This document shows, in pieces, positions 1-11,919 of a stretch of 11,919 bases of DNA. Made by a program: the position numbers and the translations under genes. The number at the start of each line of letters is the position of its first letter. Positions within the stretch are counted from its first letter, which is position 1. Where the stretch lies: NCBI GenBank assembly GCA_016182705.1, contig JACPGA010000314.1, positions 1 through 11,919 of the forward strand. The letters run 5' to 3'. The notes below the pieces were generated by a model, which saw nothing but the letters and a program-made list of their open reading frames with translations, was not told where the DNA came from and searched no databases. The stretch is from Deltaproteobacteria bacterium. GTDB lineage: Bacteria; Desulfobacterota; GWC2-55-46.

Positions 1-930
1 ATGCCTGACGACGTCGGTCTCTGAGAAGGTCACAAAGTCTATGCCTCCGACATCCTCGAGTATCTTCTGCGCCTCAACAAGGCCCGAGGGCTTGGCAAGC
101 GGCAGGTCTATCTGCGTGATGTCTCCAGTAATAACGGCTTTTGAGCCGAAACCCAGCCTCGTGAGGAACATCTTCATCTGCTCTATCGTCGTGTTCTGCG
201 CTTCATCGAGGATGATGAAGGAATCGTTCAGGGTCCTGCCCCTCATGAACGCCAGCGGGGCGACCTCGATGGTGCCGCGCTCCAGGAGTTTCTGGGCCTT
301 TTCAAAATCTATCATGTCATGCAGCGCGTCATACAGGGGCCGCAGATACGGGTCGACTTTGGCAGCCAGGTCGCCGGGCAGATACCCGAGCTTCTCACCC
401 GCTTCTACCGCCGGCCTCGTAAGTATTATCCTGTCGACTTCCTTGCTGGTGAGGGCGGCAACGGCCATAGCCATGGCAAGATAGGTCTTGCCGGTCCCGG
501 CGGGGCCTATGCCGAAAACTATGTCGTTCCTCCGGATGGCGTCAACATATCTTTTCTGTGCCACGCTCTTTGGCGCGATGACTTTTTTCCTGTAAGAGAC
601 GAATACCGTGTCCATGAAGACATCTGAAAGCTTCATCTCCCTGCCAGCCAGCGCCATCCTCACGGCATAGTCCAGGTCATGAGTGGACATGGCGTAGCCT
701 TTTTCGAGAAGCTCATAAAGGTCGAGTATGAGCTTTTCCGCAAGCTCAGCCTTGTCAGGCTCGCCAGTTATGATCACGAGAGAGCCGCGGGTATTGAGCT
801 CTACTCCAAGTCTTTTTTCGACTTTCTTGAGGCTCTCTCCCCTGTCGCCAAAAAGACGCACGGCCAGATTATTATCCGGGAGATTGACCTGTTTTTTTAT
901 TGTCCCGTTCTTTTCCGATGGGCTTGGCAA
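1..930 (-). CDS. PhoH-family ATPase (YbeZ-like), C-terminus cut by the window edge
   Basis: Cytoplasmic P-loop ATPase of the PhoH/YbeZ family, linked in other bacteria to RNA metabolism and ribosome or rRNA maturation together with YbeY. About 310 residues are visible and the frame is still open at base 1, so only the last few residues are missing (the family is usually 310-330). Seen: an N-terminal KH-like RNA-binding region with VRLFGDRGE near residue 24, Walker A GPAGTGKT at 142-149, the family block LTRPAVEAGEKLGYLPGDL, then LAFMRGRTLNDSF, Walker B ILDEAQNT with Asp242, and GDITQIDLP. No ATG or GTG lies before the KH-like region. I chose TTG at 928-930, with an A-rich GGA stretch upstream; the frame is open further up to a stop near 1018, so the start is uncertain. 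It lies downstream of lpxC behind a terminator, so it probably has its own promoter. The family is certain; the exact cellular role is known only by homology. Confidence 0.93.
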   Translation of the reverse strand, partial: MPSPSEKNGTIKKQVNLPDNNLAVRLFGDRGESLKKVEKRLGVELNTRGSLVIITGEPDKAELAEKLILDLYELLEKGYAMSTHDLDYAVRMALAGREMKLSDVFMDTVFVSYRKKVIAPKSVAQKRYVDAIRRNDIVFGIGPAGTGKTYLAMAMAVAALTSKEVDRIILTRPAVEAGEKLGYLPGDLAAKVDPYLRPLYDALHDMIDFEKAQKLLERGTIEVAPLAFMRGRTLNDSFIILDEAQNTTIEQMKMFLTRLGFGSKAVITGDITQIDLPLAKPSGLVEAQKILEDVGGIDFVTFSETDVVRH

Positions 931-982
931 GTTATTGTATTTTCCTTTTTTCCTGAATCGACCTGTTTGCTTTAATAGGAAA

Positions 983-1002
983 ACCCCTCTGAAGGGAGGG
1001 GT
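983..1002 (-). other. Hairpin in the leader of the PhoH gene
   Basis: A perfect 7-bp inverted repeat (ACCCCTC / GAGGGGT, 6-nt loop). On the minus strand it is followed by TTTTCC, a short and imperfect U-run. It lies about 50 bases before the chosen PhoH start. It may be a weak terminator or attenuator, or just a leader stem. A stronger terminator already ends lpxC upstream, so a second full stop is not needed. The remaining sequence between the PhoH and lpxC genes holds no other gene that I can see. Confidence 0.5.
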
Positions 1003-1048
1003 CTCATGAAAAAGGGCTTATTTTAAAGTAACGCTCATAAAAAACATT

Positions 1049-1076
1049 AACATAAATCAGGCATTTTTGCAATCAA
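1049..1076 (-). promoter_or_regulatory. Possible sigma70 promoter for the PhoH gene
   Basis: On the minus strand TTGATT (1076-1071) and TATGTT (1054-1049) are 16 bp apart, each matching the consensus at 4 of 6 positions. The site sits in the AT-rich gap after the lpxC terminator, where a promoter for PhoH would be expected. The match alone is weak, so this is a candidate based mainly on position. Confidence 0.3.
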
Positions 1077-1103
1077 TGGGACAGGGGACCGCGGTTTAGG
1101 GTC

Positions 1104-1130
1104 TAAAAAAAAAGCCCCTCTAAGGGGGCT
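1104..1130 (-). terminator. Intrinsic terminator after lpxC
   Basis: On the minus strand AGCCCC (1130-1125) pairs with GGGGCT (1118-1113) around a 6-nt loop and is followed at once by an uninterrupted U-run of about nine bases (1113-1105). It starts 24 bases after the lpxC stop codon. The GC stem plus U tract is a textbook Rho-independent terminator, ending the DUF2905-lpxC transcript before the PhoH gene. Confidence 0.9.
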
Positions 1131-1153
1131 GTTTTGATAATGGGTTGGCTGGA

Positions 1154-2104
1154 CTAAATAGTGGCGAGCTTCTCGAGGAGCGCGGGCATTGAAGACATGA
1201 CGTCCTTGTCAGCCAGGGAATCAGTAAGTTCCCACCTGCCCGGCTTGTCGAGCACCTTTTGCGCAAGCTTATGGTTGAGCGAATGGCCCGACCTGTACGC
1301 GATGAGCTGGCCTATTACAGGCGCGCCTACGAGGGCTATATCGCCCATCATGTCAAGCACCTTATGCCTTACGAACTCGTCAGGGTACCTAAGACCGCCC
1401 TCGTTCAATATCTCTGTGTCGCTTATTACTATCGCGTTCTCAAGAGAGCCGCCCCTGGCAAGCCCGTTGGCCCTCAGGGTTTCGACGTCTTTTAAAAAGC
1501 CGAATGTCCTGGCGCTTCCCAGCTCTTTCCTGAAAACGTCCTGCGAAAAGAGCCTCGCGAAGGACTGCTTGTTGAGGAACGGATGGGCGAAATCTATGGA
1601 GTAGTCTATCGTGAACTCCATATCGTCAGGGGGCAGCAGGAAAATGTACTTGTCGTCCTCTGAAACCCTTATCGGCTTCTTTATGACAAGATACTGCCTC
1701 AGGGCCGGAAGAGCCATGAGGCCTGAAGACTCTATCATGCCTATGAAATCAACGGCGCTGCCGTCCATTATCGGCACTTCGGGGCCGTCGATCTCGACGT
1801 TGGCGTTATCCACGCCCATGCCGTAGAAGGCGGCCATGAGATGCTCGATCGTGGAGACGGACGCGCCCTTGACGCCTATGGTGGTCGCGTAACTGGTTGA
1901 GATTACGTTGGCTGAAACAGCCTTTATGCAGGGGCTCCCGGGCAGGTCTTTCCTGTAAAACCTGATCCCGGTGTCGGGTCCAGACGGCGTTATCCTGACA
2001 TTTACGGGTTGGCCGGTGTGAAGGCCTATCCCTGAGAACTCTATTATGTCTTTCAAGGTGTGCTGCATCTTCATGTCAGCATTATAAAGCAATAAATGTG
2101 CCAT
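1154..2104 (-). CDS. lpxC: UDP-3-O-acyl-N-acetylglucosamine deacetylase LpxC
   Basis: Zinc enzyme that removes the acetyl group from UDP-3-O-acyl-GlcNAc, the committed step of lipid A synthesis in the cytoplasm. The 316-residue protein shows the whole family pattern: TLKDIIEFSGIGLHTG at the start, STIEHLMAAFYGMGVDN with zinc ligand His88, PIMDGSA, then HKVLDMMGDIALVG with zinc ligands His247 and Asp251, and SGHSLNHKLA with catalytic His274 (E. coli His79, His238, Asp242, His265). Length is close to the usual 300-310. I chose the ATG at 2104 because GAGG lies 8 bases before it. A TTG at 2122 has no such support, and the ATG at 2074, which matches the usual LpxC N-terminus better, has no Shine-Dalgarno, so the true start could still be 2074. 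It lies downstream of the DUF2905 gene, probably co-transcribed, and is closed by a terminator. It shows that the host makes lipopolysaccharide. Confidence 0.97.
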   Translation of the reverse strand: MAHLLLYNADMKMQHTLKDIIEFSGIGLHTGQPVNVRITPSGPDTGIRFYRKDLPGSPCIKAVSANVISTSYATTIGVKGASVSTIEHLMAAFYGMGVDNANVEIDGPEVPIMDGSAVDFIGMIESSGLMALPALRQYLVIKKPIRVSEDDKYIFLLPPDDMEFTIDYSIDFAHPFLNKQSFARLFSQDVFRKELGSARTFGFLKDVETLRANGLARGGSLENAIVISDTEILNEGGLRYPDEFVRHKVLDMMGDIALVGAPVIGQLIAYRSGHSLNHKLAQKVLDKPGRWELTDSLADKDVMSSMPALLEKLATI

Positions 2105-2162
2105 TAATAAATCCTCATTCAATTCGGATACTTGGTTATTAAAGGCATCCTGATAGTGTGTT

Positions 2163-2171
2163 ATTATTGCA
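2163..2171 (-). promoter_or_regulatory. Possible extended -10 element for lpxC
   Basis: On the minus strand TGC followed by AATAAT forms an extended -10 element about 60 bases upstream of the lpxC ATG. I see no good -35 box at the right distance. It could give lpxC a second start site inside the operon, but the strong promoter before the DUF2905 gene may be enough. Confidence 0.3.
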
Positions 2172-2190
2172 ACTACGGCCGCAGAATTCT

Positions 2191-2222
2191 CTTTTTTACA
2201 ACACTACCGTCTTGTAAAAAAG
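2191..2222 (-). repeat. Perfect 11-bp inverted repeat over the DUF2905 stop codon
   Basis: CTTTTTTACAA (2191-2201) and TTGTAAAAAAG (2212-2222) are exact reverse complements around a 10-base loop. The dyad covers the last codons and stop (2204-2206) of the DUF2905 gene and lies about 87 bases upstream of lpxC. In RNA it would form an A-U-rich hairpin with no U-run after it, so it is a poor terminator. As DNA it looks like a protein-binding dyad or an mRNA stability element. Its role is not known. Confidence 0.6.
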
Positions 2223-2419
2223 TAGAGGATCAGACTCAAAATGACGCTGATTATTATGGATGTGGCGAGCGGAAAATAGAAGACGAAGTTATCCCTTTTT
2301 ACGTGGATATCCCCCGGTAGTTTGCCAATATACGGTATTTTCGGTCCGTACGCGGCGAAAAGGCCGATTACTATTATGATTATGCCGATGATTATAAGAG
2401 ACTTTCCGAGCCCCGGCAT
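2204..2419 (-). CDS. DUF2905-family small membrane protein
   Basis: A 71-residue inner-membrane protein of unknown function. Two hydrophobic helices (about residues 7-24 and 51-67) flank a short conserved polar loop with the family pattern PKIPYIGKLPGDIHVKRDNFVFYFPLATSI; PYIGKLPGDI and FYFPL are the hallmarks of DUF2905. The protein ends in RR, which suggests a cytoplasmic C-terminus. I chose the ATG at 2419, which follows GAGG by 5 bases; a GTG just before it is less likely. It is the first gene after a consensus sigma70 promoter and is followed by lpxC, so the two probably form one operon. In other bacteria DUF2905 genes often sit near ruvB or queA, from memory; neither is here, so the prophage may have split an older gene neighbourhood. 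Confidence 0.9.
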   Translation of the reverse strand: MPGLGKSLIIIGIIIIVIGLFAAYGPKIPYIGKLPGDIHVKRDNFVFYFPLATSIIISVILSLILYFFTRR

Positions 2420-2439
2420 CACTACCTCGCTATCATACT

Positions 2440-2468
2440 ATTATAGGCAGGCTGCCGGGGGGTGTCAA
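2440..2468 (-). promoter_or_regulatory. Consensus sigma70 promoter for DUF2905-lpxC
   Basis: On the minus strand TTGACA (2468-2463) and TATAAT (2445-2440) are exactly 17 bp apart, a full match to the consensus. Transcription would start near 2433, about 14 bases before the DUF2905 ATG, leaving just room for its GAGG ribosome site. The -35 box is only 23 bp from the stop codon of the phage holin gene. Full-consensus promoters are usually strong and little regulated. Confidence 0.88.
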
Positions 2469-2491
2469 ACAGGAAAGTTATTTTTTGAGAG

Positions 2492-2932
2492 TTACTGCCT
2501 GTAAGCCCTTTTCCAGACCGTTTCAGCTGTTTTTTCAAGAGACCTGCCGCCGAAATAGAAAATTATGACGGTCTTCATTATCTCGCTATGGACCTCAGAG
2601 AGCGAAAACTCCCCAAAGCCCAGATAAGGAGCCAATACAGTCCAGCCAAACAGGGAAAGCGCGGCGTACGACCATATCGGCCTGTGAGTGACGGTCAGGA
2701 CCCTGGTCCAGGAAGGCGCCTGCGCCCAGGCCTCTTTTGCCGCGAGGTCACGGGCGCTCTTTAAATCAACTGACGCGGCCTTGTACTCCTCGCTCGCGAT
2801 GCGCCGGGCTTCGAGCTTTAGTTCCTCCCTTTCCTTTTCGCCCAGCGAAGACGGAAGGAACCTGTCGGTAAGCCTGTCCACTACCTTGCCTACCGTGCTG
2901 TCCAGTATGTCTGTTATTATCGGAGTTCCCAT
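2492..2932 (-). CDS. Holin-like protein (3TM/GTA-holin type)
   Basis: A 146-residue protein likely to permeabilise the inner membrane at lysis. The N-terminal half is charged and helical (EKEREELKLEARRIASEEYKA, possible coiled coil). It is followed by the pattern PSWTRVLTVTHRPIWSYAALSL, with a membrane segment near residues 89-108 and a second near 118-134 ending in FYFGGRSLEKTAE. This layout, a charged helix, then an R-P-x-W/I motif, then C-terminal membrane helices ending in GRSLEK, matches the phage 'holin of 3TMs' family also found in gene transfer agents. The ATG follows GAGGTG. It is the last phage gene and lies 9 bases after the 59-residue ORF in the lysis cassette. It ends 23 bp before the host promoter with no terminator visible. 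The family call is from memory of the pattern; the function is inferred. Confidence 0.75.
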   Translation of the reverse strand: MGTPIITDILDSTVGKVVDRLTDRFLPSSLGEKEREELKLEARRIASEEYKAASVDLKSARDLAAKEAWAQAPSWTRVLTVTHRPIWSYAALSLFGWTVLAPYLGFGEFSLSEVHSEIMKTVIIFYFGGRSLEKTAETVWKRAYRQ

Positions 2933-2940
2933 AGTTCACC

Positions 2941-3120
2941 TCAAAGTCCCATATTCCTCAGTTCATCCGCGATATCAAGAACTCGGTTTGAAGCGTCGTC
3001 AAGGGCTCCTTCCTCTATGCAGGAGATGACTGACTGGAGCCCGCCCCGGAGCTTATGCTGGAGGTGTCGCCTCGCGCTTGTAGACAGGTTCCTTATTTCC
3101 GTGATGGCGTTGTCTTCCAT
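2941..3120 (-). CDS. Small protein resembling a histidine-kinase dimerisation hairpin
   Basis: A 59-residue soluble protein with no signal or membrane segment. It reads as two helices (about 6-37 and 40-57) joined by a short turn. The first helix carries ARRHLQHKLRGGLQSVI, close to the H-box of histidine kinases (H-x-L-R-x-x-L-x-x-I), with His22 in the phosphoacceptor place; the second helix is DDASNRVLDIADELRNMG. There is no ATPase domain and no receiver domain. It may be a lone phosphotransfer or dimerisation hairpin, or simply a helical hairpin that looks alike. The ATG at 3120 follows GGGAG by 5 bases and lies just after the endolysin stop; a longer open frame upstream overlaps the endolysin and is unlikely. 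Its place between endolysin and holin hints at a part in lysis or lysis control. Function unknown. Confidence 0.75.
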   Translation of the reverse strand: MEDNAITEIRNLSTSARRHLQHKLRGGLQSVISCIEEGALDDASNRVLDIADELRNMGL

Positions 3121-3122
3121 TA

Positions 3123-3482
3123 TCACTCCCTGTATTCGAAATGGTTCGCGTCCCAGCCTGTTTTTGCCACGTAATCCTTTGGCTCTACACCAAACCTGCC
3201 GCCCCATCTGCCGCCAAGGGCCTCCCACTTTTCGCCGAGCGGCCTGTACAGGCTCCCGTCGGTCAGATATTGGCCATTCTTGAACAGGTTGAAATCCACC
3301 GCGAGCCTGTCCATGTGAGGAGAGTTCATGGTGCGGCTCTTGCCGGAGCGCACATAGAGCCTCTGCTGCTCTTCAGTCCTGAATGCTTCGCCGAAGCTCA
3401 ATTCATACCCGCCGGCGTACGCCTGCTTTATGAATTCGGCCACCAGCAAAGGAAACCTTCTCTGCATCTCCGAAATTTTCAA
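3123..3482 (-). CDS. Endolysin, M15-type L-alanyl-D-glutamate/D-Ala peptidase
   Basis: A 119-residue zinc peptidase that would cut the peptide stem of peptidoglycan to free phage particles. It shows the M15 (VanY/T5 endolysin) pattern: EAFRTEEQQ with Arg35, SPHMDRLAVDFNLF with zinc ligands His56 and Asp63, and WDANHFE with zinc ligand His114. The length is typical of single-domain phage M15 endolysins. There is no signal peptide, so release needs a holin, which fits the holin-like gene just downstream. The start is TTG at 3482, supported by AGGAGG with a 6-base spacer that overlaps the stop of the upstream gene; the next ATG in frame (Met6) would lack this. Its stop is 2 bases before the start of the 59-residue ORF, so the two are probably translationally coupled. 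Exact bond specificity cannot be read from the sequence. Confidence 0.92.
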   Translation of the reverse strand: MKISEMQRRFPLLVAEFIKQAYAGGYELSFGEAFRTEEQQRLYVRSGKSRTMNSPHMDRLAVDFNLFKNGQYLTDGSLYRPLGEKWEALGGRWGGRFGVEPKDYVAKTGWDANHFEYRE

Positions 3483-3492
3483 GCGCGTCCTC

Positions 3493-3720
3493 CTATTTAA
3501 GCGCCAGATGGCTGGCCAGATAAACGTAAGCGTCCTTCAACACCCAGAGCATCACCGCTCCGCATATCCACAGGAAAGTCCTCACGGCATTTCTCTTGGT
3601 CCTCAGAAGGTCCTTTACAGCTTCCTGCTCGGCTGGAGAAAAGGCGCACGCGCCTAACCTCGCCGCCAGCTTCTCGGCAATAAGCTCCGCGACCCGTTCC
3701 GTCTCTTTGACTTCCGGCAT
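3493..3720 (-). CDS. Small single-pass membrane protein, possible lysis accessory
   Basis: A 75-residue protein I do not recognise as a named family. Residues 1-45 are charged and helical (VKETERVAELIAEKLAARLG, then EQEAVKDLLRTKRN). One membrane helix follows at about 47-70 (FLWICGAVMLWVLKDAYVYLASHLAL), with a basic patch just before it, so the N-terminus should be cytoplasmic. The shape recalls small phage holin or haemolysin XhlA-type proteins, and the gene lies directly before the endolysin, a usual place for a holin. With the larger holin-like gene at the end of the cassette it could be a second holin, an antiholin or a membrane anchor. It starts at ATG 3 bases after the previous stop; the ribosome site (AGGCG) is weak, suggesting coupling. 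Confidence 0.8.
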   Translation of the reverse strand: MPEVKETERVAELIAEKLAARLGACAFSPAEQEAVKDLLRTKRNAVRTFLWICGAVMLWVLKDAYVYLASHLALK

Positions 3721-3723
3721 AGC

Positions 3724-4053
3724 CTACGCCTTTCTTCTTATGCCTTTAAAGCTCACGCCCCCCTGGGCGGCGGCCTGGGCAAGGTCCACTTCGAAGTTGT
3801 CCATTACGTACCTGGTCCTGTCAATCTCCTCTATCCTGGGCTGACCGGTAACAGGGTCTATGAGGGCCCTCGGGCCGCTCCCGTTTTCAATCTCCACTGC
3901 CATAAGCGTGTCTATATTGAGCCTCGCGTGCGTCAAACCCTGAGGTATGCCTGTAAACGTGAGCATCGCATCAACCTGCCCCGCGGGGAGCGTATCAGCG
4001 CAGTAGCAGGCCATTATAACTCCGGCATCATCGTGAAGGACTTCTATATACAT
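3724..4053 (-). CDS. Phage protein of unknown function between fibre and lysis genes
   Basis: A 109-residue soluble protein I do not recognise. It is acidic in the middle and shows a beta-rich N-terminal part (MYIEVLHDDAGVIMACYCADTL), a DPVTGQPRIEEIDRTRYVMDNFEVDL stretch, and a basic C-terminal tail (FKGIRRKA). I chose the ATG at 4053, which follows AGGAGG, rather than an earlier in-frame codon that would overlap the fibre gene. It lies 11 bases after the fibre-like gene and 3 bases before the small membrane protein. By position it may be a tail-fibre partner or assembly factor; the sequence gives no direct proof. Confidence 0.8.
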   Translation of the reverse strand: MYIEVLHDDAGVIMACYCADTLPAGQVDAMLTFTGIPQGLTHARLNIDTLMAVEIENGSGPRALIDPVTGQPRIEEIDRTRYVMDNFEVDLAQAAAQGGVSFKGIRRKA

Positions 4054-4064
4054 ATTTGCGCCTC

Positions 4065-4517
4065 CTAATTGGTGTGGTAATCCCAGTAAACACAAAAATA
4101 TTCGATGTTTTCAATCTGCGCCTGGACGGTTACTTCCCAGACCTCGCCACCGGAAGACAGGTGCTGACGCGTCTGAAGGAGCAGCTGGACGGCATATACA
4201 GACCCTGTCTTGTTAAAGCTCGGCAGATGGGAGTATCTGGCCACCGGGATATAATAGTTCCCGCCTGTTGAAGCACCGAAGCTTCCCCTTGCGACTTTCA
4301 ACTTGGCGATCGAAACTACGGAGTCAGCGAGCACGACGGTCTTGCTGTTTATGCCGTCATGGTCGTGGTCCACTGCCGGGGTAAAACTATCACCAAGCCA
4401 CTCTTTGAGGTGCACCAGGTTCTGCCTGACCCCTTCCATGAGAGTCGTATCGATCGGGCTTTCCGCGTCAGTCTGCGCTGAAGTAATCGCGTTCCATGAA
4501 AATGTTGGCGCTGCCAT
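4065..4517 (-). CDS. Short tail fibre-like protein
   Basis: A 150-residue protein likely at the tail tip. Residues 1-45 carry a short helix-forming segment (LMEGVRQNLVHLKEWLGD), then the motif AVDHDHDGINSKTV at about 48-61. HDHDGxNSK repeats are typical of phage tail fibre and tail collar proteins, where His and Asp residues may bind metal along a trimer axis. The C-terminal part (from about 75) is beta-rich and would form the distal knob. The ATG follows GGAGAG and lies 9 bases after the hub stop codon. The assignment rests on the HDHDGINSK motif and the gene order; the receptor cannot be told. Confidence 0.75.
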   Translation of the reverse strand: MAAPTFSWNAITSAQTDAESPIDTTLMEGVRQNLVHLKEWLGDSFTPAVDHDHDGINSKTVVLADSVVSIAKLKVARGSFGASTGGNYYIPVARYSHLPSFNKTGSVYAVQLLLQTRQHLSSGGEVWEVTVQAQIENIEYFCVYWDYHTN

Positions 4518-4526
4518 AAACTCTCC

Positions 4527-6245
4527 TTACCAGATATGATATCCGTCCACCCCGCCAGTGAGGTTGGAGGCATTCCCCACGTACCCGTATGCTCTCTGGG
4601 CCGATGAAGCTCCCTCGTAATCAGGCAGCCCGGCAGGGGCTATGAAGCCGTACCGCCTTGACATCTTTGTCTCGACGCCCTCCACCGACACCCTGCCTGA
4701 AGCGAAATCCGGCCGCACAGACGTCAGCATGACCCTGTTTCTAAGCCAGCTTGCCGCGCCCTTGCCGCACGCCTCATCCGTCGTGAGGTCTTTCAAGTCA
4801 GCCGGCTTCATGAACCTTGAGCTGGTTGCCATGCAGTTTATATCCACGTCGAAGCTCATCGTCGCCACAGGGTCTCTGTACCGGTTGAGAAGCTTTCCCG
4901 CAAGCGTTGAAGCATGGTTGCCGCCCCCTATCGCGCTTATTTCCACTATTGAGGCCGCGTTTGCGGCCGGGAGGGAAGCGATGTTTACCAGAACCCGCAC
5001 ATACCTGTTTTTATCGGCGTCAAAGACCTGGTATTTGCCGTCACGCGTAAGCTTCACGGCCTCTCCGGCCACCCCTCCCGGTGAAGTCCAAGTCAATGAT
5101 GAAGAGGCTTTGATGAACGAGAGCTGTCCTGTCCCTTCACCGTTAGCCCTTGACGCGTGATAGACTTTAATCCCGCCCAATCCCGGCTCTTCAATGAATG
5201 TATGCGATCTTATCCACTTGCTCTTTATGGTCCGGGTACAGGTCTCCTTCCACTGGGAAGCGCTCTGCGAGGCGGCGTCAGCAGCTATGACCGCTGACTC
5301 ATAGTTCCCTTCCCTGTCTCCGCCTGACTCGTCGTAATCGTAGTAAACGACCACCCTGTTGCAAAACCCGTCTCTGTAGCCTGCCTTCACCGCGAAAGAG
5401 TCCTTCAAAAAGGTCCTGTCAGTCCATTCATCGACCGTCTGCCCTGGCACTGGCGGGGCAAAGACCTTGAAGCCTATCTTTTCACCGTCATGCACGATAA
5501 AAGAGTTTGACTCAACCTGCAGCTCGTTAAGGAACTGGTTCGCTTCCAGGGGTTCCGTAAGTATCCTGTCAAACTTCCAAGCGCCGAGCCATCTGTCCCT
5601 TTCCAAGGCAAAGGCCTCGAGATCGACCAGAGAAGCGTCTACGCCGAGCCTTGATACGATGATGTCAGACATGATGTCCGCCGGGTTCATTGACCTGTAT
5701 TCTATGAAAGCGGTCCTCGACTCGGTTTCAGCCGGGATCCTGGCGGAAGCTTCTTTCAAGTCATCAGCGATGACGACAGTAAGCTCATCGCCTTTCCTGG
5801 ACCAGTCAAGGACCTTGCCGGTGAATGTCGAGGCGTAATCAACCCAGGTGAAACCATGAGCTATGAAACCATCCCTGCGCTTGACGCGCCTGTTCTTCAG
5901 GTACTCGTCGCTTACAAGAGCCGAGAAATTTTCTCTTCCGGCGATCACGACAGTAAACTGCCCTCTCGTGGTATAGCCTGAGCGCACGTCTATCCTGTTC
6001 TGAAGCGAAGAGACCGTTTTGAGCGCCGGGATTACGAACGGAAGCTCGTCACTTCCTGCCGGGTTCAGGTAACCGTCGGCACGATAAGTTCCATCCGCCC
6101 TGAACAGGCACGGGGGAAGCATGTTCCTTCCATGAAAGCCGAACCTTACGAGCCCGTTGTCCAGTTCGAACTCGACAACGACATTGGAAATATTTGTGCA
6201 TCTCCCGAGTTCTTCCAGGAATCTGCGGCTTAGGACCATCCCCAT
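4527..6245 (-). CDS. Large tail hub/tip protein (baseplate or host-attachment hub)
   Basis: A 572-residue beta-rich protein with no signal peptide or membrane segment. Residues about 80-190 contain RSGYTTRGQFTVVIAGRENFSALVSDEYLKNRRVKRRDGF, then GKVLDWSRKGDELTVVIADDLKEASARIP; this fold pattern, a beta barrel followed by a 'distance from the axis' sub-domain, recalls phage tail hub proteins (gp27/Tal-like). Residues about 200-260 (NPADIMSDIIVSRLGVD, then EANQFLNELQVESNSFIVHDGEKIGF) also resemble such hubs. The middle (about 370-440) looks like an inserted beta domain (GKYQVFDADKNRYVRVLVNIASLP) that may bind sugars. The C-terminus is Gly-rich. The ATG at 6245 has GGGGAG 7 bases upstream. It follows the tailspike after a 66-base gap and precedes the fibre gene. 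I am sure it is a phage structural protein; the hub role is inferred from order and sequence pattern. Confidence 0.75.
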   Translation of the reverse strand: MGMVLSRRFLEELGRCTNISNVVVEFELDNGLVRFGFHGRNMLPPCLFRADGTYRADGYLNPAGSDELPFVIPALKTVSSLQNRIDVRSGYTTRGQFTVVIAGRENFSALVSDEYLKNRRVKRRDGFIAHGFTWVDYASTFTGKVLDWSRKGDELTVVIADDLKEASARIPAETESRTAFIEYRSMNPADIMSDIIVSRLGVDASLVDLEAFALERDRWLGAWKFDRILTEPLEANQFLNELQVESNSFIVHDGEKIGFKVFAPPVPGQTVDEWTDRTFLKDSFAVKAGYRDGFCNRVVVYYDYDESGGDREGNYESAVIAADAASQSASQWKETCTRTIKSKWIRSHTFIEEPGLGGIKVYHASRANGEGTGQLSFIKASSSLTWTSPGGVAGEAVKLTRDGKYQVFDADKNRYVRVLVNIASLPAANAASIVEISAIGGGNHASTLAGKLLNRYRDPVATMSFDVDINCMATSSRFMKPADLKDLTTDEACGKGAASWLRNRVMLTSVRPDFASGRVSVEGVETKMSRRYGFIAPAGLPDYEGASSAQRAYGYVGNASNLTGGVDGYHIW

Positions 6246-6285
6246 CGAATCACTCCCCTTTTGATGAACAGCTTTGCGTTCTTTT

Positions 6286-6298
6286 CACGGGCGCCGTG
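6286..6298. repeat. Small GC-rich dyad in the tailspike-hub gap
   Basis: CACGG and CCGTG form a perfect 5-bp inverted repeat around GCG in the 66-base gap between the tailspike stop and the hub start, the longest non-coding gap in the phage part. On the minus strand it is followed by AAAAG, not by a U-run, so it does not look like a terminator. It may set relative expression of the two genes by RNA structure or processing, or mean nothing. Confidence 0.35.
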
Positions 6299-6311
6299 CC
6301 GCCGCGCTCTA

Positions 6312-7724
6312 TCATGGCGTGTTATCGTGGACCTGAAAGTACCAGTTCGTTCCGTCGAAAATCCCGGTCATCACATCGCCTGCGGCCCCTGCGAAGTCCA
6401 CGCCGCCGTTGCCCTTGAGGTTCGTCCCAGTAAAGTCGATCGTGGTGTTAGCATCAGCGAAAATTACTGTTATCTCCTGCCCGACAACTCCATCATCAAA
6501 CGCAGTGATGGTCGTTGGGTTTACCGATTGAGTCTTGAAGGAGTGCCTTTTTCCGCCAACCGCGACCGAAGGCGTGGCGTCGTCCAGGGCCAGATTCGGC
6601 ATTCTGGGATCGACGGTGCCGGCGGCCACAATGGTATCGTAGGCCGTATTCTCGACGTTATACGTCCCGAGTTCCAATCTCTTGATGCCGGAAAGGTTGA
6701 AGGCGGTGTGCCCGCCTTCGTCGTCGCCTACAAGCCTGAGCTTGTCCATTCCAAGCCCATCGACATTGTTGGCGAAAACAGCCGTGGTGTTTTCATACAT
6801 GGTAAGCTCTTCAAGCCTTACATTATGGATATTGTACGAAGTGGCTGTAGTTACCCTTACGCCGTTGATCGAAGTGTTTTCAATGAGGGAGTTCTCAACC
6901 AGGACCTCCCTGTAGAAGTCCTGTATCCTAACGCCGTAATCGTGGTTGCCGGCGGCGCACTCCCTTATGGTCATATTGCCGCCCCGGTTGCCCATGGCCG
7001 CAAGCAGGAAACCTGTGCCGCTGTACTGGGCGAGGCAGTTGTCATAGGTAATGTGCGTGGTATGGACAGGGTCTGCTGTCGTGGCTCCCACCTTGAAGCA
7101 GGCCTCGCCTTTTTTTCCGGCCCCAGCCGAGCCCATGCGGATGTAGCAGTCACGCATTGCAATCTGGTACGCGTGATTGAGCCACAGGCCGACAGCCGCC
7201 GGGTTATAGAAACCGTACATGGTGATCCGCTCGAAGAGCCACTGCGTCACGAACTTGGCGTAAATTCCACCAAGAGCAGTCGTTGAGCTGCTGCCGTCTA
7301 TTGAAAGATCGGTTATGGATGAGTACGGGAGCCAGTCGCCTGTGGCCCCGTCCGAGCTGTTAATGAGCCAGCTTGCCGAGCTGGCGGGTATCTTCAGGAT
7401 GGTATTGGCCCGGCCAGCTCCCCTGATATTGCGATAGCCCCTCACATTCAGGTTTTCGCAAAGCCATATCCCGGCGGGTAAATATATCCTCTGCCCGTTG
7501 GTAATACATTCCTGTATCTCATCCGAGTAATCGACCGAGCCATTGGTTACAAAACCAACGGGCAAAAACTCGCGCAGGTCAAGCTCCTTGCGTCCAGTCA
7601 GGTTATACTTGTGCGTCCCGTCGTTGTTGTGCTCGACAAGGGAAAGACGGTTGAGAGTGTCGGCCTTTACAGGATGCCCGGTCCCTACCATCTCTTCGTT
7701 GAATTGTATCCGCAGGTCTGCCAT
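6312..7724 (-). CDS. Tailspike/receptor-binding protein with pectate-lyase-like beta-helix
   Basis: A 470-residue protein that probably binds and may cut host surface polysaccharide. Residues 1-50 form a short particle-binding head. From about 65 to 380 the sequence has the rhythm of a right-handed parallel beta-helix (YSDEIQECITNGQRIYLPAGIW, NLNVRGYRNIRGAG, SSITDLSIDGSSS, FERITMYGF, MRDCYIRMGS, GVRIQDFYREVLVENSLIENTSINGVRVT), as in the pectate lyase 3 family. Residues 384-470 form a small C-terminal domain (TPSVAVGGKRHSF ... GQEITVIFADANTTIDF ... FDGTNWYFQ) common at the end of phage spikes. The ATG has AAGGAG 5 bases upstream. I cannot identify catalytic residues, so enzyme activity is a guess. 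It lies between the distal-tail-like and hub genes, an unusual place, since spikes more often follow the hub. Its target is probably lipopolysaccharide or capsule. Confidence 0.85.
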   Translation of the reverse strand: MADLRIQFNEEMVGTGHPVKADTLNRLSLVEHNNDGTHKYNLTGRKELDLREFLPVGFVTNGSVDYSDEIQECITNGQRIYLPAGIWLCENLNVRGYRNIRGAGRANTILKIPASSASWLINSSDGATGDWLPYSSITDLSIDGSSSTTALGGIYAKFVTQWLFERITMYGFYNPAAVGLWLNHAYQIAMRDCYIRMGSAGAGKKGEACFKVGATTADPVHTTHITYDNCLAQYSGTGFLLAAMGNRGGNMTIRECAAGNHDYGVRIQDFYREVLVENSLIENTSINGVRVTTATSYNIHNVRLEELTMYENTTAVFANNVDGLGMDKLRLVGDDEGGHTAFNLSGIKRLELGTYNVENTAYDTIVAAGTVDPRMPNLALDDATPSVAVGGKRHSFKTQSVNPTTITAFDDGVVGQEITVIFADANTTIDFTGTNLKGNGGVDFAGAAGDVMTGIFDGTNWYFQVHDNTP

Positions 7725-7736
7725 GTTGACTCCTTC

Positions 7737-8510
7737 TTATTCCTTCCGGCCTGTAAGCGCTATCACTATATCCCTGGCGGCCCCTCCGGATTTGAGCGGG
7801 TTTGAAAACCTCGGCTCTGGCCTCATCAGAAAAACATCTTCAGGGTGCCCTGAATTCTCCCACGCCACAAAAAAATTCCTTGTGCCGCTGCCTTCCCACC
7901 ACTCTTTGACCTTCCCATAAAGCGCAGCGTCCGCGTCGTCGAACCTTATTGTCATGGACCTTTCGATATACTTGGCGTGAGCGCCGGCGAGATATCCGCC
8001 ATTGCTCAGATTGACAGCGGCCTTGACCTCCTGCTCGTTGGGGTCGAACGACGCGCTCGCGTAATCGAGCTCTGTCCTTAATCCCCACGCCGCTATGTAG
8101 ATAAACGGGGCTATGACCGTGCCTTCAAGCGCGAGCCTCCAGTACCTGAAAGCCCCGGGGCTCGTGAACTCCTTTACGAAAGCCCTGTCAGAGGCGGGGA
8201 TAAACGGCGTAAAGGCATCAAGGTACGATTCTCCGTCGTTTGAATACTGGAGTTTGACGAGCGCGTTAATTGAAGCAAAGTTGTGACCTGAAACCGCGAG
8301 ATAGTCAGCCTCATGGGAGTTTCCCTCACCAGAGTCGTGCATTATGTAATGCGGCCCCATTCCCACAGCTGCCTGCCACAGGTTCGTCTCGAGCATGTTG
8401 CAGATATTGGATACGCTTGTGCGCTCGAAAGTCGAGCTCGCTTCAAGCGCGGAGCCCTGGGAGCCTGAAAACGACTTCCAGTAGAATTTTATTTTTGCCC
8501 AGTCTGCCAT
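7737..8510 (-). CDS. Tail protein with discoidin-like domain, probable distal tail protein
   Basis: A 257-residue protein without signal or membrane segment. Residues about 35-130 look like an F5/8 type C (discoidin-like) fold: a core of NLWQAAVGMGPHYIMHD, ADYLAVSGHNF, VKLQYSNDG and FRYWRLALEG, usually a sugar-binding beta sandwich. The second half (about 150-257) holds SIxFD-like stretches ending in RNFFVAWENSGHPEDVFLMRPEPRFSNPLKSGGAARDIVIALTGR, the kind of C-terminal beta domain seen in phage distal tail proteins. It starts 12 bases after the tape measure stop with AGGCAGG upstream, and is followed by the tailspike gene. Position straight after the tape measure is the standard place of the distal tail (Dit) protein, which links tube and hub; the sugar-binding domain would add host adhesion. 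The role is inferred. Confidence 0.75.
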   Translation of the reverse strand: MADWAKIKFYWKSFSGSQGSALEASSTFERTSVSNICNMLETNLWQAAVGMGPHYIMHDSGEGNSHEADYLAVSGHNFASINALVKLQYSNDGESYLDAFTPFIPASDRAFVKEFTSPGAFRYWRLALEGTVIAPFIYIAAWGLRTELDYASASFDPNEQEVKAAVNLSNGGYLAGAHAKYIERSMTIRFDDADAALYGKVKEWWEGSGTRNFFVAWENSGHPEDVFLMRPEPRFSNPLKSGGAARDIVIALTGRKE

Positions 8511-8521
8511 TACCTGCCTCG

Positions 8522-9367
8522 CTAAGCCATTTTCGTTATGTTCACGGCGATGTTCCTGTCACCGGCTTCCCTCAAGGCCGGCACGATGTTGTCTTCCACG
8601 ATCTTCTGCCAGTTCTGCTCGGAAAGAGGGTTGTATATCTGCACCGTTATTGACTGCAAAGGCCTTGCGTCCTCGACCCTTGTCGGCGCCGGGTACGCGC
8701 CTGGAGAGCCGCCCGAGTACTGCGGGTTCGCCCTGCCGCCTGAATCTATGGAGCTGGTAGCGCCCTCGGGCCTCGTATTTTTTATCTGCTCTACCCTCGC
8801 CAGTCCTGCCGCGATGGCGGCAGCCGCCGCCGCCGCTCCAAGGGCTGGGCCCACAACCGGTATCGGGGCAAGGGAAGCGAACGCACCCTGCGCGGCCCTG
8901 TAGGTCTGTATTACTGTCTCAGCCACGGCAAAGGCTTTCATGGTCTCGAACATGGCTCTGTGCCTGCTGCCGGTAGCGATGAAAAGGTTCTGGAGCGTGT
9001 TTGAAATGAGGGAAGCTCCTGCTTCCGCATATCCAGCCCTTCTCGCCCAGCTGGTCTTCTCGAGTTCATCGAGTTCCGCGGCTCGCGCCTCCTCAAAAGT
9101 CCTCTCCTGAGCGGCGTGACGTGCCCGCCCATCCATATAAAGGGCCTGCCCTTCCCTGAGCCTGGCGACCCTGTTACTGCCGCCGGTGTCGGTTGCGGCA
9201 ACGGCAAGCCTTTCAATGTCCTTTTTCATTTCATTGAAGGCCCGGCTCACGCTGGTCGTATATTTAACAGTAGAAGCTATCGACAGAGAACTCAGCCTCT
9301 GCAAGCCCTCTTCCGCAGCCGCTGCCGCGCTTCTGGCCCTGCCTTCGTACATATCCCGTTCAGCCAT
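8522..9367 (-). CDS. Short tail tape measure protein
   Basis: A 281-residue protein, helical and Ala-rich. Residues 10-160 are long charged helices (for example EERTFEEARAAELDELEKT) with coiled-coil character. Residues about 144-197 carry the tape measure signature: AFAVAETVIQTYRAAQGAFASLAPIPVVGPALGAAAAAAAIAAGLARVEQI in outline, a hydrophobic Ala/Gly block that is widely found near the C-terminus of siphophage tape measures. A Gly/Ser/Pro linker and a small C-terminal domain (QSITVQIYNPLSEQNWQKIVEDNIVPAL) follow. It sets tail length and helps DNA passage through the host membrane. At roughly 0.15 nm per residue the tail would be about 40 nm, very short compared with most siphophages and near the size range known from gene transfer agents. 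The ATG has GGGGAG upstream and overlaps by 8 bases the end of the frameshifted chaperone extension. Confidence 0.85.
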   Translation of the reverse strand: MAERDMYEGRARSAAAAAEEGLQRLSSLSIASTVKYTTSVSRAFNEMKKDIERLAVAATDTGGSNRVARLREGQALYMDGRARHAAQERTFEEARAAELDELEKTSWARRAGYAEAGASLISNTLQNLFIATGSRHRAMFETMKAFAVAETVIQTYRAAQGAFASLAPIPVVGPALGAAAAAAAIAAGLARVEQIKNTRPEGATSSIDSGGRANPQYSGGSPGAYPAPTRVEDARPLQSITVQIYNPLSEQNWQKIVEDNIVPALREAGDRNIAVNITKMA

Positions 9368-10129
9368 TTTTCTCCCCGGCTAATCTCGCCCTTTCTGACT
9401 GATATATCTCAAAGGCCTCCACGGCCCAGCAGGGTTGATCCGCCAGGCCTCCGTCAAAATAGAGCCGCCCTGAGCTTTCCATCATGAATACCGTTCTCAT
9501 CATCCTGAAGCTCTCCTCGCTTATATAACTGAGGGGGCATTCGTAGAGCCTCAGGTCTCCGTGGCTTATGACCTTTGCTGAGCCGCTTGCTTTGAGCTCT
9601 TCACTTATCTCCGGGTCATAGGCCGCGACAGCTCTTGCTGCCTCGGAGAGTCCCTTGTAGTTGGAGCAGTTGCGCTCTTTTTTGTCTGCTTCAGCGCAGT
9701 TCGAACAGGTAAACGGGCTCCCGCTGCCCCTCAGCGCCCAACGGAAGCCCGCTGTCAGTTTTTTCTCTGTCCGTCCGTGAGCCTTGAGGCTGATTCCATC
9801 GCCCTTATGACCTCGAGCACCAGGTCGGTATCCGCGGTATCGAAGAACTCGCCAGGGCTCGTGACCTTCATGGAGCCCACAAAATAGCCGCTTATGTTCT
9901 CAACGTTCTCGACGAACTGCTTTCTCTGAACGTGCTGGGTAAGCTCGGCCACCTTCACGGAGTCGGCAACCCCTCTTGTCCTCGCGGCCAGAAGCCTCGA
10001 ATATTCCTGGACCCTCGAGTACGGCACAAACCTGAGGCTCACGACGCACGGGTCGGCGCTTTCCCTGTTCCCGCCGTACTCAGGTATGTAGTCCACTATG
10101 CTTTCCCTGTCGAAGCTGACTATAGACAT
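9360..10129 (-). CDS. Tail assembly chaperone, long form made by -1 frameshift (G-T type)
   Basis: Fusion of the 124-residue chaperone (10129-9758) with a 132-codon extension read in the -1 frame from 9758 to the stop at 9362-9360, giving 256 residues. The extension is fully open, has no ATG, GTG or TTG with a ribosome site near its beginning, and overlaps the tape measure start by 8 bases, exactly the layout of lambda gpG/gpGT. The extension begins LTAGFRWALRGSGSPFTCSNC and has cysteines at about 142, 145 and 155 (C-x2-C-x9-C) plus 198 and 234, which could bind zinc. In lambda the long form binds the tape measure and recruits tail tube subunits and is absent from the finished particle; the same job is expected here. 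The ratio of long to short form should matter for assembly. The frame relation and the frameshift signal are seen; the function comes from the family layout. Confidence 0.88.
9715..9764 (-). promoter_or_regulatory. Programmed -1 ribosomal frameshift signal
   Basis: The slippery heptamer A AAA AAC lies at 9764-9758 in the correct zero-frame phase (aga aaa aac), directly before the TGA stop (9757-9755). After a 7-base spacer a stem starts: GGGCTTCC (9750-9743) pairs along all 8 bases, with one G-U, with GGGAGCCC (9722-9715). Inside it a second stem GCTG (9735-9732) with CAGC (9726-9723) closes a 5-base loop and stacks on the outer stem. Slippery site, spacer and stem all match known -1 signals. 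It controls how much of the chaperone is made in the long form. Confidence 0.92.
9755..10129 (-). CDS. Tail assembly chaperone, short form (G-like)
   Basis: A 124-residue soluble protein, the product when the ribosome does not shift. It begins MSIVSFDRESIVDYIPEYGGNRESADPCVVSL and then has a helical body (RVQEYSRLLAARTRGVADSVKVAELTQHVQRKQFVENVENISGYF), the usual shape of tail assembly chaperones: a short beta-rich head followed by helices, with a FFDTADTDLVLEVIRAME helix near the end. It ends at TGA straight after the slippery site. The ATG is preceded by GGGAGG. It lies 25 bases after the tail tube gene and just before the tape measure gene, the fixed place of this gene in long-tailed phages. 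The short and long forms together should coat the tape measure before tube polymerisation. The role is assigned from position and the frameshift rather than strong sequence similarity. Confidence 0.85.
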   Translation of the reverse strand: MSIVSFDRESIVDYIPEYGGNRESADPCVVSLRFVPYSRVQEYSRLLAARTRGVADSVKVAELTQHVQRKQFVENVENISGYFVGSMKVTSPGEFFDTADTDLVLEVIRAMESASRLTDGQRKN

Positions 10130-10154
10130 CCGTCCTCCCGGTTAAATTCAATTT

Positions 10155-11243
10155 TCAAACAGCAGACGCGGTGTTGACGAGCATGACCCCTGCCATGTAG
10201 CCGGCCCCCGCGCTATAGAGGCCTTCGTACTTGAGAGTTATCATCGGCTCTTTGTCGAGCCTGTACTCCGGCTCGCCCCCTATGCGCTGGAGCCTGGGGA
10301 GGTCGATAAAGAGCGCGTGGTTAGCTCCTGTGCCTGCCTGAGTGCCTGTGTCCCAGTGCAGAAACAGGCTCGATGATTCAGGAGAGGCAAGCCAGCTCCT
10401 GAACTCGGCTGCCGATGAAAAGCCACTTGCCGGGTCTTCCCAGTCGATTGTCATCTCAGCCGTGACCTTGTACTGGCCCACCCTCGTTCTGTCAGGGTAA
10501 TCGACCCCGGAAAGCCGCATGGCGTCCTCCATGCCGTTCTCCATCTTTATGCTGACTTTGTCAGGTTTTACCCTGGTCGCGCCTTCAAATGAAAAACCCG
10601 TGAAAGCCGGAGCAGTGCCAGTCCTTGTCACAGGCCCGGTATATATTTTCAAACTTTTGTAATCGCAGCGGAGCGGCTCTGCCGCGAACTCAGCGCCTCC
10701 GATCTCGTTTTCGGTGTCATTCCTCTTCTGGCCGGACAACTCAACGGAAAGCTTGAGCGCTGAGCCCGCTTCCTGCTCAAAGGCTATCGATTTGACCCTG
10801 CCGCCAGCGTAGGGCCAGTTTTTCATTAACGCGCCCTCGTTCAGATTCAGGTTGAGGGTAAGCCCCTTGTTGCCGAGGTTAGCCTCTGAAAAAGGGTCTA
10901 CGGCAGGCGACATCATGTGATAATACTGGCCAGTGGCTCCGTTCTGTGCTGAATCGCACTTGCCGAAAAAATGCTTCAGCACTGTGCCCACGAGTCCAGC
11001 CGACGAGCCTGCCTCCGTATAGAAGGGGGTCTCAATAGAAGCGGACCACCTCTGCCCCATACGGACAACAGCCGTATCCCCCTTTGCCGCTTCCTCGCCC
11101 CTGAACTCTTTTCTCCTGCGGTCGTCGAATTCCATCTTCGGTATCGCGGGGTTCAGAAGCGGAATGAAACCGACGGCCCCTGATTCCTTTACTCCCCTGA
11201 CCGCCTCTTCTCCTATCGCGAGATAGAGCCTGTTTGTCGACAT
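10155..11243 (-). CDS. Major tail (tail tube) protein
   Basis: A 362-residue beta-rich protein likely to form the tail tube by stacked rings. The N-terminus MSTNRLYLAIGEEAVRG followed by GFIPLLNPAIPKMEFDDRRRKEFRGE, then QRWSASIETPFYTEAGSSAGLVGTVLKHFFG, is typical of phage tail tube proteins. The C-terminal half repeats the theme (GFSFEGATRVKPDKVSIKMENGMED, then KVTAEMTIDWEDP, then MITLKYEGLYSAG), consistent with two tube folds in one chain, as in longer tube proteins. The ATG at 11243 follows GGAGG by 7 bases; a TTG one codon earlier is also possible. It sits between tail terminator and chaperone genes, the expected order. Its length is greater than that of lambda gpV (246 residues), so it may form trimeric rings; that is an inference. 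Confidence 0.85.
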   Translation of the reverse strand: MSTNRLYLAIGEEAVRGVKESGAVGFIPLLNPAIPKMEFDDRRRKEFRGEEAAKGDTAVVRMGQRWSASIETPFYTEAGSSAGLVGTVLKHFFGKCDSAQNGATGQYYHMMSPAVDPFSEANLGNKGLTLNLNLNEGALMKNWPYAGGRVKSIAFEQEAGSALKLSVELSGQKRNDTENEIGGAEFAAEPLRCDYKSLKIYTGPVTRTGTAPAFTGFSFEGATRVKPDKVSIKMENGMEDAMRLSGVDYPDRTRVGQYKVTAEMTIDWEDPASGFSSAAEFRSWLASPESSSLFLHWDTGTQAGTGANHALFIDLPRLQRIGGEPEYRLDKEPMITLKYEGLYSAGAGYMAGVMLVNTASAV

Positions 11244-11259
11244 CAATCGTCCTCCCTGA

Positions 11260-11688
11260 TTACGATTCCCTGTATCTTACTTTTACATCCATCGATATCT
11301 TTGAAAACCCGCCGTCGCTCTCAACGCTGAAGCCGGGTATCCTTACGCCGGTGACAGGCTTTGCCAATGCAAGCTCACCGCTATTGAGCGCGCTGTCAGT
11401 CAAAGCCTGCCTTGCCTGGTGCGCCCACATCTGTTCATCAATCAGAGCCGGGCAATCAGGCTGCTCGGGTAGAATTATTTTTATCGTGAAGCTGGCCTCA
11501 GAGTAGCTTGGCCGCTCCCCAAAGGGACTTTCAAAGGACTCTCCGTTATAGGAGACCTGGGCGAGAGGCATCAGCCCTGCCGGAAGCGAGCCCTTTGAAT
11601 CGAGCGCCTTCCTGGTGACATTGAGCCCTTCATTCTTCAAGGCAGTTTCAATGTTCCCGGTTATTTCCGATATTGTTTCGTAGCCCAT
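11260..11688 (-). CDS. Tail terminator/tail completion protein
   Basis: A 142-residue soluble protein with the alpha-beta pattern of tail terminators (gpU-like): an N-terminal helix (YETISEITGNIETALKNEGL), then beta strands (LMPLAQVSYNGESF, YSEASFTIKIILPEQ), a helix (PALIDEQMWAHQARQALTDSAL), and a final beta pair (VTGVRIPGFSVESDGGFSKISMDVKVRYRE). This protein caps the tail tube and joins it to the head. The ATG overlaps the stop of the upstream gene as TAATG, with GGAG 3 bases before it, so translation is probably coupled. It lies 16 bases before the tail tube gene. The family name is inferred from position and fold pattern. Confidence 0.7.
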   Translation of the reverse strand: MGYETISEITGNIETALKNEGLNVTRKALDSKGSLPAGLMPLAQVSYNGESFESPFGERPSYSEASFTIKIILPEQPDCPALIDEQMWAHQARQALTDSALNSGELALAKPVTGVRIPGFSVESDGGFSKISMDVKVRYRES

Positions 11689-11919
11689 TATCTCCTGCCC
11701 GCCTTCAGGCAGCCGAATGCCAGTTCGCCTTCAGCCCCGGTTATAGAGCCGTCCCCTGAATAATCGTATTTAAGCCTCAGACCCGAATAGGCACGGACGG
11801 CCTTGCCTTCGTACTCTTTCCACAGGTCCCACCATATCCCCTTGTTTTCGGAAGCAAGGCCCTTGCACGCCTCCGCGACTGACAGGTAAATATGGGCTTC
11901 GCGCAAGTCCTGGGAATCG
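11688..11919 (-). CDS. Probable head-tail connector protein, N-terminus outside the window
   Basis: The frame is open to the right edge, so the visible 76 residues are the C-terminal part of a longer protein; the TTG near 11906 is just an internal codon by this reading. Visible sequence: LREAHIYLSVAEACKGLASENKGIWWDLWKEYEGKAVRAYSGLRLKYDYSGDGSITGAEGELAFGCLKAGRR. A helix ending in a Trp-rich EYE stretch before a basic region, next to the tail terminator gene, recalls the head-tail connector (gp6/adaptor-like) proteins of siphophages. DYSGDGSIT resembles a single calcium-loop-like segment, possibly by chance. The gene ends as TAATG, sharing one base with the tail terminator start. Without the N-terminus the assignment stays tentative. 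Confidence 0.6.
   Translation of the reverse strand, partial: DSQDLREAHIYLSVAEACKGLASENKGIWWDLWKEYEGKAVRAYSGLRLKYDYSGDGSITGAEGELAFGCLKAGRR

Follow-up and report, generated by a model that had tools for sequence, protein, structure and literature searches.

How are the roughly 390 bases between the tail assembly chaperone gene and the tape-measure gene of a deltaproteobacterial contig (JACPGA010000314.1, assembly GCA_016182705.1) decoded, and to what kind of element do these genes belong? The stretch analysed here, positions 1 to 11,919 of that contig and 11,919 nucleotides long, is referred to as the window. The initial annotation of the window had noticed that a search for open reading frames leaves this interval without a gene, as is indeed the case from 9754 to 9368, and had proposed that it is reached by a −1 frameshift. 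On the sequence evidence, a programmed −1 frameshift in the chaperone gene is almost certain; what was missed is that the gene seems to sit in a vertically inherited cluster and not in an ordinary phage. Taken together, the likely best explanation is a frameshifted chaperone gene within a domesticated, gene transfer agent (GTA)-like cluster.

The chaperone gene lies between the tail tube and tape-measure genes on the minus strand, and its open reading frame (10129–9755, 124 residues) ends in AGA AAA AAC TGA, bearing out the in-phase heptamer and immediate stop originally described. The heptamer A AAA AAC (9764–9758, minus strand), which consists of the last A of AGA followed by AAA AAC, is preceded by GAG and is thus in zero phase. 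Read in the −1 frame from 9758, the sequence stays open for 132 codons until the stop at 9362–9360, 8 bases within the tape-measure gene (ATG at 9367), and the 124 residues of the short form plus the 132 of the extension give exactly the 256-residue product that had been anticipated. The features of the signal and its products are as follows.

9758 to 9764, minus strand: slippery heptamer A AAA AAC, found in the same phase at 37 of 39 related places
9755 to 9757, minus strand: zero-frame stop codon TGA, immediately 3′ of the heptamer; in 2 of 37 relatives (G044 and G013b) it stands one codon further on
9715 to 9750, minus strand: predicted stimulatory hairpin with a 12-bp stem, all nine core positions paired in 32 of 37 related places, with compensatory changes
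9755 to 10129, minus strand: zero-frame tail assembly chaperone, short form, 124 residues
9360 to 9758, minus strand: −1 frame extension, 132 residues and stop, overlapping the tape-measure start by 8 nucleotides
9537 to 9707, minus strand: codons of the four invariant cysteines (9707–9705, 9698–9696, 9668–9666 and 9539–9537), present in 35 of 35 sequences

By itself the heptamer is weak evidence, because AAAAAAC occurs four times in the window against 1.6 expected, a count reached in 17 of 200 shuffles; the case for frameshifting rests on the combination of phase, open frame, stem and conservation in related places. The hairpin, which begins 7 nucleotides 3′ of the heptamer, folds as a single 12-bp helix (−22.0 kcal/mol), and 2 of 200 shuffles of 9757–9715 fold equally well (z −2.5). 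This agrees with the 7-base spacer and with the presence of a stem as first proposed, but not with its description as an 8-bp stem with a second one stacked inside. A Shine-Dalgarno-like GAGGG or GAAGG, found 6 nucleotides 5′ of the heptamer in 31 of 37 rows, is not claimed as a second stimulator, because a conserved Glu-Gly pair encodes the motif and the window itself has GACGG (9765–9785, minus strand).

A relative of the chaperone is encoded at 39 places, 37 from the genome of the window and its relatives and two from IMG/VR, which are not all independent (one IMG/VR contig duplicates the G012 sequence). The heptamer is kept in the same phase at 37 of them, with a stop directly after it in 35. 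It is missing at two places, one in G001 and the other a second G008 copy. These two homologues (L100 and L102) are distant, at 46% identity, are located after a tape-measure gene, not before it, and lie near a gene that by eye resembles a tyrosine recombinase. Overall, 318 of 333 cells of the core stem are paired, a count that keeps as partly unpaired two rows (G033 and G027b) whose 3′ arms were anchored off the motif. Compensatory changes replace C-G by G-C in G013 and G013b and by T-A in G031 and G042. When 3′ arms were reshuffled among the 15 distinct arm pairs, the observed pairing of 120 of 135 was reached in 2 of 5000 shuffles (mean 113.9), a control that does not preserve the relatedness of the sequences. 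Part of the stem conservation is protein-driven, because both arms also encode conserved residues.

The −1 frame is under purifying selection, with a ratio of nonsynonymous to synonymous substitution rates (dN/dS) of 0.11–0.28 in seven pairs. The frameshift is supported by the position of the gene, the conserved heptamer, the covarying stem and this selection; in addition, no start codon is conserved, and the fold weakly matches that of the HK97 chaperone. Across the homologues, where a normal start codon or a signal that was not conserved had been named as evidence to the contrary, no conserved start is found and both heptamer and stem are kept.

A −1 frameshift is a conserved feature of the tail assembly chaperones of double-stranded DNA phages (Xu et al., as named in a passage of PMC10274946). 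The gene described here resembles lambda gpG/gpGT in its position between tail tube and tape measure, its two overlapping frames, the −1 direction and the pairing of a short with a long product. In lambda the heptamer is GGGAAAG, whereas here A AAA AAC is combined with a strong conserved hairpin. We envisage that ribosomes on the chaperone gene would slip back one base at the heptamer, aided by the hairpin downstream, and that a fraction of them would make the 256-residue protein with its four-cysteine extension. By analogy with gpG/gpGT, coating of the tape measure would fall to the short form and recruitment of tail tube subunits to the long form.

The extension is a further apparent difference from lambda. 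The C-x2-C-x9-C cluster first noticed in it is real but was incompletely described, in that a fourth cysteine at extension residue 74 is as invariant as those at residues 18, 21 and 31. The conservation of all four strengthens the earlier suggestion of a zinc site, and the extension is probably a metal-binding domain. Its fold is predicted confidently by modelling; no Pfam family matches it, and PHROG, PDB and BFVD give nothing significant, with two weak PHROG matches among 35 members and with no direct comparison to the lambda T domain among these searches. The chaperone itself matches no family in Pfam or PHROG.

The distribution of these genes bears on the kind of element involved. Among 48 genomes of one uncultivated deltaproteobacterial order, 33 have a chaperone match, one of them (G001) through the distant copy only, and a further three have the capsid only (G009, G018 and G021); carriers are taken as 35 of 48, in all seven families. 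The 13 genomes without an intact element come from several genera, a scatter consistent with repeated loss, with the reservation that most of them are draft genomes. In G029 the site is empty (L086), with ychF and DUF2905 about 230 bp apart and nothing between them, although the cluster is present in five members of the genus. A decayed copy occupies the same locus in G035 (family f7, L087), on a contig that has both flanks, and is reduced to the small terminase, part of the large terminase, a small tail-end gene and the holin. The capsid is 71–98% identical to the query within the order and is found in none of 15 other genomes of the class; its eight matches among 395 genomes of the phylum all lie inside the order. 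The best phage matches are 31.8% for the capsid and 45.2% for the terminase, which is the closer of the two to phages. Two IMG/VR contigs (L002 and L003), catalogued as viral, encode the element and are probably chromosomal pieces of these bacteria.

Trees of the element, built on seven proteins, were compared with those of lpxC (28 taxa), which is linked to the element, and of rpoB (31 taxa), which is separated from lpxC by about 13 kb in G008 and G023 and is on other contigs in drafts. The element shares 15 of 28 splits with rpoB against a null maximum of 3 in 2000 shuffles (r 0.64, null maximum 0.31), and 11 of 25 with lpxC (r 0.79, null maximum 0.38). Synonymous divergence (dS) of most cluster genes is close to that of neighbouring host genes (between G008 and G017: lpxC 0.42, phoH 0.34, ychF 0.65, capsid 0.40 and chaperone 0.57), and is higher, about 1.5, for the beta-helix gene and the first small gene of the same pair. 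Left out of this reading are the G008–G027 dN/dS values for connector (1.4), hub (0.79), phoH (0.93) and perhaps endolysin and beta-helix, which probably reflect frame breaks in the G027 assembly. The G+C content of the cluster equals that of its flanks and tracks the host from 0.475 to 0.587.

The chromosomal site is largely shared. Downstream of the chaperone the window runs through tape measure, distal tail, beta-helix, hub, endolysin and holin genes into DUF2905, lpxC and phoH, and where the contig allows a decision, lpxC lies 3′ of the cluster in 17 of 19 cases (17 of 32 chaperone carriers; 13 are undecidable, including G010, whose contig extends 2.9 kb past the holin and has no lpxC). 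The order ychF, element, lpxC is seen on eleven contigs, all from the largest family, f1, and ychF is on the contig of the capsid in G004, G010 and G016. In relatives, contigs that reach further show what lies upstream: the two terminase genes (small and large), portal, scaffold and capsid, followed in family f1 by ychF. With the first conserved gene ahead of the small terminase and the last of the lysis genes taken as its limits, the cluster spans 13.5–15.7 kb in five genomes and 21.9–24.3 kb in three others; the latter have additional genes, either in the interval from capsid to connector or behind the tape measure. The tape-measure frame is 230–375 codons long in 30 of 32 rows (281 residues in the window), and because it is short a short tail is expected.

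These observations make it very likely, as far as genomes can tell, that the cluster is a domesticated element of this order. As defined in passages of PMC9662315, GTAs derive their particle proteins from Caudoviricetes, are endogenized and are inherited vertically with a phylogeny congruent with that of the host; they also package mostly random host DNA, cannot package their whole own genome and deliver DNA to other cells. Three of these six features, namely phage-derived proteins, endogenization and congruent phylogeny, are seen here in the sequences, and the other three need particles. RcGTA and the GTA families described there are likewise phage-derived, fixed in host genomes and co-diversifying, and the families share with the present cluster a head-tail region of comparable size (about 13.5–15.7 kb in the five compact versions measured here) and a holin of the GTA_holin_3TM family, which exceeds the cut-off in 3 of the 8 members scanned. 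The cluster differs from them in belonging to another phylum, in the distance of its best phage matches and in a small terminase that seems to keep a helix-turn-helix (HTH). For its tail chaperones RcGTA uses two genes, g10 and g10.5 (in a passage of PMC11409702), where the present cluster has one frameshifted gene. Dd1 of Desulfovibrio desulfuricans is a GTA reported from a deltaproteobacterium (passages of PMC11841831 and PMC11409702); it is of another lineage, and, with no Dd1 sequence compared, the capsid of the present cluster was found in no genome outside its order among 395 of the phylum. Among the papers listed in literature searches, none describes a GTA in this lineage, judged by title or the start of the abstract.

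Several observations weigh against this picture. Known GTAs are said, in a passage of PMC11841831, to lack a detectable DNA-binding domain in the small terminase, a noted feature outside the definition of PMC9662315. Here the small terminase seems to keep an N-terminal HTH: the G008 protein matches phrog_1206 over residues 1–61 (E 1e-9), HTH_23 scores 14.8 bits, below its cut-off, and by eye 15 sequences share this N-terminal pattern. Of the 20 element splits with good support, six, mostly deep, conflict with well-supported rpoB splits, eight supported pairs conflict with the lpxC tree, and G040 and G042 are misplaced, G040 (f7) grouping with family f1; this implies either some horizontal exchange or weak trees. 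The contigs of G011 and G031 run far enough and have no lpxC, and four genomes outside f1 (G032, G034, G043 and G046) extend more than 5 kb upstream and have no ychF. Some hosts have related chaperones in separate prophage-like regions as well, and the fold match of the upstream part to the HK97 tail assembly chaperone (PDB 2ob9), at 5% identity, is below the safe level of the tool. Because the small terminase seems HTH-bearing and three features need particles, we call the cluster, which resembles a GTA in gene content and inheritance, GTA-like and not a proven GTA. We envisage that a phage-derived head-tail-lysis cluster was domesticated early in one order beside lpxC, was mostly inherited with the chromosome and would most likely make GTA-like particles with a short tail. 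GTA function is reasonably probable. The fuller proposal is favoured only slightly over its negation: a GTA family domesticated independently and resident beside lpxC from a time before the families diverged, whose small terminase bears an HTH and whose long chaperone, made by frameshifting and carrying four cysteines, keeps its signal under vertical inheritance.

Alternatively, a domesticated cluster with the same frameshift could be kept for another use, such as killing particles or DNA-filled decoys. The HTH that the small terminase seems to keep would fit this, as would the beta-helix depolymerase-like spike and M15 endolysin kept in the window; however, in the tested pairs dN/dS is low for terminase, portal, scaffold and capsid, genes that would be needless in a tail-only device, and the terminase Walker A motif is kept in 14 of 14 long sequences, and we regard this as unlikely, if still a serious contender. 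Tailocins are tail genes without capsid and terminase, a description that the cluster, in which terminase, portal, scaffold and capsid are present, does not fit. Capsid-forming satellites carry an integrase and depend on helper tails; here a tail module is present and no integrase was found among the scanned proteins, so that the cluster does not fit this kind either.

It is improbable that these are simply prophages, temperate or decaying, with a chaperone frameshift of lambda type, and that the order-wide pattern reflects a common phage group and a favoured site. In favour of this, every particle gene is phage-type, related tail modules occur in separate prophage-like regions of the same hosts (G013 C32 and G027 C1), and some trees conflict. 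Against this stand the agreement with rpoB and lpxC far above permutations, the host-like dS of most genes, the match in G+C with the flanks, and the identity of the capsid across the order. As to temperate features, the flanks share no word longer than 11 nucleotides in the five regions tested, and neither an integrase nor a replication gene was found among the scanned cluster proteins, the inserts of the larger versions being read by eye over their first 110 residues.

That the second frame is a separate gene with its own start or translational coupling is very improbable. Eighteen separate database proteins of 88–130 residues match the extension, at 12 of 36 loci an ATG, GTG or TTG stands in the extension ahead of the first cysteine, and for three of the other 24 a start is present well before the extension, within the chaperone gene but in the open frame of the extension; yet those 24 loci have no start within the extension before the first cysteine, the invariant residues begin at the slip site, and heptamer phase and stem are conserved. 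A sequencing error or recently split pseudogene, conceivable in a draft assembly 61% complete, has a negligible chance given a like arrangement at 37 of 39 places in many assemblies, low dN/dS in both halves and no uninterrupted frame at any of the 37 heptamer places.

The 2022 classification, in the passages of PMC9662315 cited above, recognizes three GTA groups with an established genetic basis. A GTA-patterned cluster found order-wide in another phylum offers a genomic basis for seeking particles in uncultured lineages and a fresh case for host retention. Retention of the signal suggests that the ratio of the two chaperone forms still matters for particles no longer spreading as a virus, and the junction peptide of the long form (RKN-LTAGFR) could serve as an expression marker in metaproteomes.

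The remaining genes of the window are as follows.

11688 to 11918, minus strand: C-terminal piece of a connector-like protein of about 300 residues, cut by the contig end (putative function, from synteny)
11260 to 11688, minus strand: conserved 142-residue protein in the tail-terminator position (putative function, from synteny; no family match)
10155 to 11246, minus strand: tail tube protein (PF18906, E 1e-10)
8522 to 9367, minus strand: short tape-measure-like protein, 281 residues (PHROG tape measure families, best 6.6e-13)
7737 to 8510, minus strand: protein in the distal-tail position, 257 residues (putative function, from position)
6312 to 7724, minus strand: beta-helix protein with a depolymerase-type C-terminal domain (PF13229, PF25692)
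4527 to 6245, minus strand: tail hub/fibre-like protein (phrog_11439, E 2e-12)
3123 to 3482, minus strand: M15 endolysin (PF13539, E 2.4e-6; phrog_465)
2492 to 2932, minus strand: holin, GTA_holin_3TM-like (PF11351, 22.0 bits, cut-off 24.8; phrog_3427 holin, 4e-7)
2204 to 2422, minus strand: DUF2905 gene, first after the cluster and taken as host flank (PF11146, E 8.5e-24)
1154 to 2122, minus strand: lpxC, conserved host flank (PF03331, E 1e-103)

The prophage-like regions of G013 (C32, L104) and G027 (C1, L105) encode relatives of the tube, chaperone and extension, and the heptamer there is the same. Tape measures of prophage-like relatives are longer than those of the cluster, at 745 (G013), 619 and 635 residues, with a further 516 judged by position (G027). 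In G014, G019, G036 and G044, inserts between the extension or tape measure and the distal tail gene encode what by eye are small lipoproteins and, in G036, an M23-type peptidase, and other versions of the cluster have fibre-like genes between capsid and connector. At the head of the cluster is a small sigma-factor-like gene (G008 L050:13866-14132, 88 residues; phrog_1190, E 1.6e-5), 68–95% identical in 13 further regions, which may be the regulator of the cluster. A second gene (G008 L050:14059-14346) overlaps it in the +1 frame, and its ATG is conserved in 10 of 10 regions compared.
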